Under the pieces are notes generated by a model that worked only from the letters and a program-made list of their open reading frames with translations, was not told the DNA's origin and did no database searches. 64,000 nucleotides of DNA from the NCBI GenBank assembly GCA_937928545.1, contig CALGJQ010000031.1, positions 1 to 64,000 of the forward strand. Direction: 5' to 3'. The translations under genes were made by a program, and so were the position numbers. This DNA comes from an uncultured Verrucomicrobiales bacterium (GTDB lineage: Bacteria; Verrucomicrobiota; Verrucomicrobiia; Verrucomicrobiales; Akkermansiaceae). Shown here in pieces: positions 45,041 to 47,074 of the stretch; the first letter of the stretch is position 1; every line of letters starts with the position of its first letter.

Positions 45041-45298
45041 ATGGAAAAACACACTCGTGGAGTAGAACTCAAAAATGGAGAAAGCGTCGACCGCGCCCTC
45101 AAGCGCTTGAAAACCAAGCTCGACACCGAGGGCATCCTCGAAGAAATGCGCCGCCGCCGCGCTCACGAAAGCACCATTACCCGCGCCATCCGTAAGGCTC
45201 GCACCGCGCCAAAGCGCAACAAAGTCCGTTGGAGATTCCAGAGCGAAGGCCAAGTCGCCACCGCTGAAGCAGCTGCTGCCGCTCGCAACGCTGAATAA
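45041..45298 (+). CDS. rpsU: 30S ribosomal protein S21
   Basis: An 85-residue protein whose first 60 residues match S21: GVELKNGESVDRALKRLKTK, then ILEEMRRRRAHES and a basic end TRAIRKARTAPKRNKVRWRF, with an Ala/Glu-rich extension (EAAAAARNAE) that the shorter E. coli protein lacks. S21 sits on the platform of the small subunit near the anti-Shine-Dalgarno region. It is a single gene with its own promoter and terminator, lying directly before the Sec-containing HMA protein. Confidence 0.92.
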   Translation: MEKHTRGVELKNGESVDRALKRLKTKLDTEGILEEMRRRRAHESTITRAIRKARTAPKRNKVRWRFQSEGQVATAEAAAAARNAE

Positions 45299-45444: not shown

Positions 45445-46008
45445 ATGAATGCAAAAATTAGATTAGGCATCTTGTGTGCCTTTGGAGCAATGACCCCGGT
45501 CGCCTTCTCGGCGCCAACCGCCACGGAAGAGGTCGCTGCATCAACTATCGTAGGATACAGCGTATCCTTCAGCGGTGGTGGGTGAGGCGCTGCGAACAAA
45601 GCCAGTTTGGCTTTGAAGAAAATGGAAGGCATCGACAAAGTGATGCTCTCTGGAATGACCGCCTTCGTCACCACGAAGAGCGACGACGTCAAGGTGACTC
45701 GCGGAACCATCCGCAAGGCATTTGATGGCTCAGGCCTCAAGGTCGAGCGCGTCGGTAAGAAAGACATTCCCGCTCCTAAGGAAGCTTACAACATCGCCAT
45801 CACTGGCGGCACATGAGCACAAACTAACGAGAGATTGCGTGCCGATCTCGAAAAGTTGGATGAAGTCAGTGCAGCCTTCGTAAACCGCGGACAAATTGTT
45901 CTTCTCATGGCAACCGCAGACTCCTTCGATAAGGAGAAGATTGCTAAAATGACCAAGAAGCGTAAGTCCGAAATCAAAACTGCTTCTAAAACCACTAGCC
46001 CGCTCTAG
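45445..46008 (+). CDS. Putative double selenoprotein: exported tandem HMA-like protein
   Basis: ATG 45445 to TAG 46008, 187 residues with in-frame TGA at codons 47 and 124. Signal peptide MNAKIRLGILCAFGAMTPVA then FSAP. Two ferredoxin-like (heavy-metal-associated) repeats follow: residues 35-103, YSVSFSGGG-U47-GAANKASL, and residues 112-180, YNIAITGGT-U124-AQTNERLR. Both have the pattern Y-x-[VI]-x-[FI]-[ST]-G-G-x-U that HMA domains show around GMTCxxC; Sec replaces the first Cys and the second Cys is Ala (U-G-A-A) or Thr (U-A-Q-T). Each TGA is followed by a SECIS-type hairpin at 18 and 21 nt. A role in binding soft metals such as mercury or copper, or a periplasmic redox role, is inferred. 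Conventional calling would give only short fragments. Confidence 0.8.
45597..45615 (+). promoter_or_regulatory. SECIS-type hairpin for Sec47
   Basis: CAAAGCC-AGTTT-GGCTTTG: a perfect 7-bp stem and five-base loop with G in position 2. The loop starts 18 nt after the TGA at 45583-45585. It has the same loop type (AGUU/AGUUU) as the hairpin in the beta-barrel gene at 30555. Confidence 0.75.
45831..45849 (+). promoter_or_regulatory. SECIS-type hairpin for Sec124
   Basis: GAGATTG-CGTGC-CGATCTC: a 7-bp stem with one U-G pair and a five-base loop whose second base is G. The loop starts 21 nt after the TGA at 45814-45816. Confidence 0.65.
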
Positions 46009-46038: not shown

Positions 46039-46073
46039 AAACCCGGCCCGTCGTTGACGGTGTCGGGTTTTTT
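46039..46073 (+). terminator. Rho-independent terminator after the double-Sec gene
   Basis: Nested stem: AAACCCG with CGGGTTT outside and CCGTC-GTT-GACGG inside, then TTTTTTAT. It lies 30 bp after the TAG that ends the read-through frame, not after either TGA, which supports the full-length reading. Confidence 0.85.
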
Positions 46074-46831: not shown

Positions 46832-47074
46832 ATGAATAAGAAAGGGATCATCCTCATCGTCTTCCTAATCCTCGTCGTCCTCCATCAGGACTTCTGGAAT
46901 TGGGATAATGCCAACCTCGTCTTCGGCTTCATGCCCGTCGGACTTTTCTACCACGCTTGTTACTCCCTCGTCGCCGCTGGCTTCTGGGCCATCGTGATGA
47001 AAGTCGCCTGGCCTACCGAGCTCGAAGAATGGGCCGAAGGCGGAACCGATTCGTCGAAAGGAGGTGACCAATGA
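46832..47074 (+). CDS. DUF3311-type small membrane subunit beside a symporter
   Basis: An 80-residue protein with two membrane helices (about 5-19, GIILIVFLILVVLHQDFW; 31-57, FGFMPVGLFYHACYSLVAAG) separated by the short polar stretch NWDNANLV. DUF3311 proteins accompany sodium:solute symporters, as here: the stop overlaps the symporter start (ATGA). It probably stabilises or completes the transporter. Confidence 0.85.
   Translation: MNKKGIILIVFLILVVLHQDFWNWDNANLVFGFMPVGLFYHACYSLVAAGFWAIVMKVAWPTELEEWAEGGTDSSKGGDQ
47057..47067 (+). promoter_or_regulatory. Strong Shine-Dalgarno sequence of the symporter gene
   Basis: AAAGGAGGTGA, complementary to the 3' end of typical 16S rRNA, lies 3 bp before ATG 47071 and inside the end of the DUF3311 gene. 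It settles the start of the symporter and stands out because most genes here lack such a site. Confidence 0.85.

Follow-up and report, generated by a model that had tools for sequence, protein, structure and literature searches.

A tandem HMA-like protein family with two conserved selenocysteine codons in marine relatives of Akkermansia

Described HMA selenoproteins and the tandem gene

Selenocysteine (Sec) has been recorded in HMA-type metal-binding proteins before, and the initial annotation of the locus studied here stated correctly that Sec-containing mercury-transport proteins had been reported. The UxxU metal-binding protein is a predicted selenoprotein family with two Sec (PMC13188914), modeled in NCBIfam as NF041115 (UxxU_metal_bind, 74 aa); a Sec-containing MerP was reported from the Global Ocean Sampling survey (PMC2398784); and NF045683 describes a MerT/CopZ fusion-like heavy metal transport selenoprotein. 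Two consecutive HMA folds occur in CopA of B. subtilis (PDB 1p6t, 2rml) and in human ATP7B (2rop), and an exported HMA domain that binds soft metal is known from MerP (TIGR02052).

The gene described here lies at positions 45445 to 46008 on the forward strand of the window, i.e., the whole 64,000-nucleotide stretch of Akkermansiaceae DNA that was analyzed, and encodes a 187-residue tandem HMA-like selenoprotein that has Sec at positions 47 and 124 and is predicted to be exported. It resembles NF041115 in having HMA-type domains and two Sec, but NF041115 is a single domain whose UxxU holds both Sec, whereas the window protein carries one Sec per domain with no second chalcogen, lacks the UxxU motif and reaches 14.7 bits, the cut-off being 95. 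With NF045683 and Sec-MerP it shares Sec in an HMA-like mercury/copper domain; yet the former is a transporter fusion and the latter a single MerP domain, and NF045683 is not matched by the tandem protein among the matches listed. The CopA domains are a cytosolic part of a pump and have a CxxC each, unlike the window protein, which is free, predicted to be exported and Sec-containing, with no second Cys. MerP, finally, is a single CxxC domain encoded in a mer operon; the window protein, also predicted to be exported, scores 21.5 bits against the MerP cut-off of 92.55 and has no mer neighbors, the only conserved ones being shared within the genus, such as that for ribosomal protein S21. A search for MerT across the genus gave no match, but neither did its controls, so that this is no evidence of absence.

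A 2026 inventory of 119 prokaryotic selenoprotein families contains no tandem HMA protein and no mention of Verrucomicrobia. Measured against the open-access literature, the tandem protein is thus a new, Sec-only family within the already known HMA-type selenoproteins, and an unusual one, with apparently obligate Sec at two sites and no Cys.

Two in-frame TGA codons, their hairpins and the selenocysteine machinery

The reading frame begins with ATG at 45445 and ends with TAG at 46006-46008. As the initial annotation had it, TGA at codon 47 (45583-45585) and at codon 124 (45814-45816) are the only further stops in frame, and the coordinates and frame it gave are correct. The upstream neighbor on the same strand encodes ribosomal protein S21 (45041-45298), an arrangement found at 16 loci of the genus and not conserved outside it. 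Downstream, a spermidine-synthase-like methyltransferase gene on the opposite strand is followed by a DUF3311 and sodium-symporter gene pair. Apart from close relatives in one other genus, no conserved gene neighbors were found outside the genus. At the terminator proposed after the TAG, a terminator-like hairpin followed by a T run (46049-46062, forward strand) is only a weak match to the consensus.

Two in-frame stops under the standard code would be expected of a pseudogene with two nonsense mutations. All 54 full-length homologues, however, from three families of one verrucomicrobial order, carry two in-frame TGAs at the same aligned sites, at identities of 24-91% among those aligned. Within the genus a homologue is present in 24 of 27 genomes, and each of the 23 full-length copies (41-91% identity) has exactly two in-frame TGAs; across the family the gene occurs in 51 of 260 genomes from five genera, with exactly two TGAs in all 50 full-length copies; and the other families of the order contribute four further homologues, each again with two. 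No homologue ends at either TGA, and the protein is conserved downstream of both. The pN/pS ratio is 0.35 before the first TGA, 0.36 between the two and 0.29 after the second, i.e., purifying selection acts on all three segments. The double TGA is thus real and far beyond chance, and a pseudogene, refuted by this conservation, retains a negligible probability.

Only eight columns are invariant over 40 aligned members (G44, G46, U47, S69, G70, G121, U124 and R132), and both Sec are among them. A Cys homologue at the Sec position is a common, though not a defining, feature of nearly all selenoprotein families. No tandem relative with Cys at either Sec site was found in searches of the family, order, class or phylum; the CxxC HMA proteins that did match in the searched genomes are all single or otherwise different, not tandem forms. 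A scan of named genomes with Cys-based patterns, which are strict, gave 41 stretches and no relative, in agreement with the lack of Cys forms. Pipelines built on Cys/Sec pairs need a Cys homologue, so this family would be missed by them. Across its known spread in these marine bacteria, both Sec have been held with no reversion to Cys.

The carriers of the tandem protein are marine relatives of Akkermansia. A pattern for the second site located the gene, among named genomes, only in Verrucomicrobiota, mostly Akkermansiaceae, with one record titled just "Bacterium"; cultured carriers are Roseibacillus persicicus KCTC 12988 and Rubritalea profundi SAORIC-165. These matches point to Akkermansiaceae as the family of the window itself. 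Pattern matches in two Gastranaerophilales contigs and two viral contigs encode no relative and were discarded. Two tandem homologues (L082 in G231 and L140 in G611) apparently end in TGA themselves, which would make TGA both Sec codon and stop within one gene.

A stem-loop follows each TGA, and the distances of 18 and 21 nt proposed earlier were confirmed. The first hairpin (AAAGCC-AGTTT-GGCTTT, 45598-45614, forward strand) and the second (AGATTG-CGTGC-CGATCT, 45832-45848, forward strand) both have a 6-bp stem and a 5-nt loop of the form NGUNN, with GU at loop positions 2-3; the loops lie 18 and 21 nt after their TGAs, and the folding energies are -10.0 and -8.8 kcal/mol, respectively. For the first loop, the alignment gives AGUUU, and folding of the single sequence gives a 3-nt GUU. 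The published bacterial SECIS model allows a loop of 3-9 nt with G in its first two positions, an upper stem of 4-16 bp, a distance of 16-37 nt from the UGA and an MFE of at most -7.5 kcal/mol (PMC13188914), and both hairpins fall within these limits. No Rfam SECIS family matches the locus.

The hairpins are maintained by selection on the RNA. Over 48 sequences, the stem positions are paired in 95.3% of cells at site 1 and 98.0% at site 2, with 30 and 72 two-sided changes, respectively, numbers reached in none of 500 shuffles. The complete, exact 6-bp hairpin is present in 75% of sequences at site 1 and 90% at site 2, and shuffling of synonymous codons yields a full stem in only 2.7% and 3.4%. 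Within the genus, synonymous identity is 1.0 at most codons of both hairpins, compared with a mean of 0.56. Taken singly, the hairpins do not reach significance against dinucleotide shuffles (z of -0.8 and -1.1), and the significance of the elements thus comes from the covariation and codon-shuffle tests. In 49 of 50 sequences the codon seven positions after the first Sec, which forms the first loop, is NGT, even as its residue varies among Arg (CGT), Ser (always AGT) and Gly (GGT); AGT accounts for 13% of the Ser codons elsewhere in these genes. That NGT is kept despite these switches reflects selection on the RNA. The invariance of Arg132 is probably explained in the same way: its codon forms the loop of the second hairpin, and Arg132 is probably not a functional residue. 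Some of the apparent invariance of the protein, at Arg132 and Arg/Ser54, thus stems from the SECIS loops and not from protein function.

The source genome also encodes the complete machinery, comprising SelA (480 bits), SelB (319 bits), SelD (381 bits) and a tRNA-Sec (SelC) with anticodon TCA. Its selD itself has one in-frame TGA and would encode a Sec-SelD (G000:C13:27449-28378, minus strand; L108), and fragments resembling the C-terminus of SelA adjoin the full selA (G000:C5:11411-11764, minus strand, L106; and L107), perhaps as a decayed duplicate. Among the 260 family genomes, SelB is present in 69; gene and SelB co-occur in 45, the gene alone is found in 6, SelB alone in 24 and neither in 185 (P = 3e-26, Fisher's exact test, not corrected for kinship). 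The six genomes with the gene and no SelB, five of them <90% complete, all have SelA, and thus every gene-bearing genome of the family has some Sec machinery, SelB or SelA.

Taken alone, two in-frame TGAs could also be stops read through by an ordinary tRNA, or sense codons of a changed code, with no selenium involved. The neighboring DUF3311 gene is terminated by TGA (47072-47074), so TGA is an ordinary stop in the source genome; together with the covarying hairpins at both TGAs and the presence of the gene only alongside Sec machinery, this makes readthrough or a changed code highly improbable. None of the outcomes that the initial annotation named as refuting it was observed. We regard it as close to certain that the gene encodes a double selenoprotein. 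For each UGA, a separate SECIS hairpin within the coding sequence would direct decoding as Sec by SelB and tRNA-Sec.

HMA fold and possible roles of the two Sec

The AlphaFold2 model of the protein has two beta-alpha-beta-beta-alpha-beta ferredoxin-like domains, with pLDDT of about 95 in both, and places the Sec of each domain where the first helix begins. Domain 1 spans residues of about 32-109 (45538-45771, forward strand) and is also recognized in profile comparisons with CopZ, CopA and MerP; domain 2, of about 112-187 (45778-46005, forward strand), repeats the fold, and the two repeats are homologous to each other (hhalign, 98.5%). In a profile search of solved structures the tandem HMA of B. 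subtilis CopA was the top match (E = 2.4e-8), and Foldseek matched the CopA and ATP7B pairs, with a TM-score of 0.81 to CopZ on one domain. The superposition on tandem HMA structures over the whole length is poor (rmsd 14), and the domains thus probably pack differently from the CopA and ATP7B pairs.

In the alignment, each Sec takes the place of the first Cys of CxxC, as had been proposed for both; the canonical spacing holds exactly in domain 2, whereas domain 1 lacks one residue immediately behind its Sec. The second Cys is lacking in both domains, as anticipated, its place being taken by Ala50 in domain 1 and by Thr127 in domain 2, where Thr and other residues occur among relatives. In place of the two-Cys CxxC of the HMA domain model (PF00403), the first Cys is Sec. 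The window protein scores 19.5 bits against the PF00403 cut-off of 24.8 and falls below every Pfam and NCBIfam cut-off; 18 of 40 family members match PF00403 at E <= 0.01, the best at 1.2e-7. Weak Pfam matches to HydF_tetramer and others were attributed to chance or to similarity of fold and discarded. The profile search, the fold search and the alignment of both Sec with the CxxC site together support kinship with HMA domains, of which we are highly confident.

The N-terminus (45445-45513, forward strand) reads by inspection as a signal peptide, MNAKIRLGILCAFGAMTPVAFSA, probably cleaved after AFSA. Most relatives have an N-terminus of classic signal-peptide shape, and in several members of one genus the usual end is replaced by a lipobox-like one (ASC). 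These N-termini suggest a secreted protein that resides in the periplasm or, in some relatives, probably carries a lipid anchor.

Cys is entirely absent from the mature domains of 47 of 50 sequences. Each domain would offer one selenolate at the first metal-binding Cys site of the HMA fold, with no second chalcogen, and the two Sec would be the only soft ligands of the mature protein apart from Met. Since Cys is absent and each domain has a single Sec, the sole chalcogen partner of either Sec within the molecule is the other. Paired HMA domains jointly hold copper when passing it on, as in Atx1-type chaperones. The two Sec, likewise, most likely act jointly, within one molecule or between two, in an Se-M-Se site that would capture a soft metal outside the cytoplasm, e.g., Hg(II), Cu(I) or Ag(I). 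Against a metal, the reduction of the CxxC pair to one chalcogen per domain weakens the case for a simple HMA-type site, and the gene has no conserved metal-transport neighbor. We consider metal capture, taken by itself, evenly balanced.

The main alternative is an extracytoplasmic redox enzyme, in which each Sec would act as a nucleophile, peroxidatic or for thiol exchange, and the HMA scaffold carrying it would have lost its metal binding. The loss of the second metal ligand in both domains suits such an enzyme, and strict Sec without a Cys form is typical of catalysis; the invariant Ser69-Gly70 of domain 1 is expected on that face of the HMA fold which carries Sec47. Redox enzymes make up most known selenoproteins, and the UxxT of domain 2 resembles a motif listed for GPX-like and OsmC-like selenoproteins (PMC13188914). 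Thr127, however, is not invariant among the 40 aligned members, the 47 Cys-free mature proteins have no resolving Cys, and the gene has no conserved thioredoxin-like or reductase neighbor. Moreover, we know of no oxidoreductase with an HMA fold. A redox role of this kind is possible, if doubtful. A Sec-only selenoenzyme outside the cytoplasm, with one catalytic Sec per domain of the HMA fold, neither metal nor Cys, and the capacity to form a diselenide between the two Sec during turnover, seems to us rather unlikely.

The two Sec could also be cargo and not active sites, as in a selenium store or carrier akin to a minimal selenoprotein P. The predicted export, the two Sec, the lack of Cys and the restriction to genomes with Sec machinery would agree with such a function; but the Sec number only two, both sit at conserved structural sites in a fold whose ligand position is known, and a store would not need their invariant surroundings (G44, G46, S69, G70 and G121). 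We regard a store as quite improbable. As a whole, we lean toward a secreted protein of two HMA domains, with both UGAs decoded as Sec and a two-selenolate site for soft metal, as the best explanation. This raises the question of whether one selenolate per HMA domain is sufficient for holding a soft metal; and the small, soluble protein makes the question of why Sec is used and not Cys directly testable.

Single-domain HMA proteins with in-frame TGA codons

The source genome encodes a second HMA protein with an in-frame TGA, a single-domain exported paralog (G000:C17:253-576, minus strand; L083) whose single TGA falls in a UxxxC motif (SGLVUAGGCSKKV) and which has a hairpin resembling a SECIS, AAGTGCAGGCTGCACTT. 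This paralog is common to many gene-bearing genomes (also L084-L091, L093 and L094). It is nearest to NF041115, below the cut-off of that model, and reaches 26 bits against the NF045683 cut-off of 375, nearer than the tandem protein. Single-domain HMA proteins with TGA also occur in another family of the order (L127, L130 and L132), in UAGC (UxxC) and UKVGC forms. CxxC single-domain forms are found beside the TGA forms (e.g., L135 and L138), and single-domain HMA proteins thus do show exchange between Sec and Cys.
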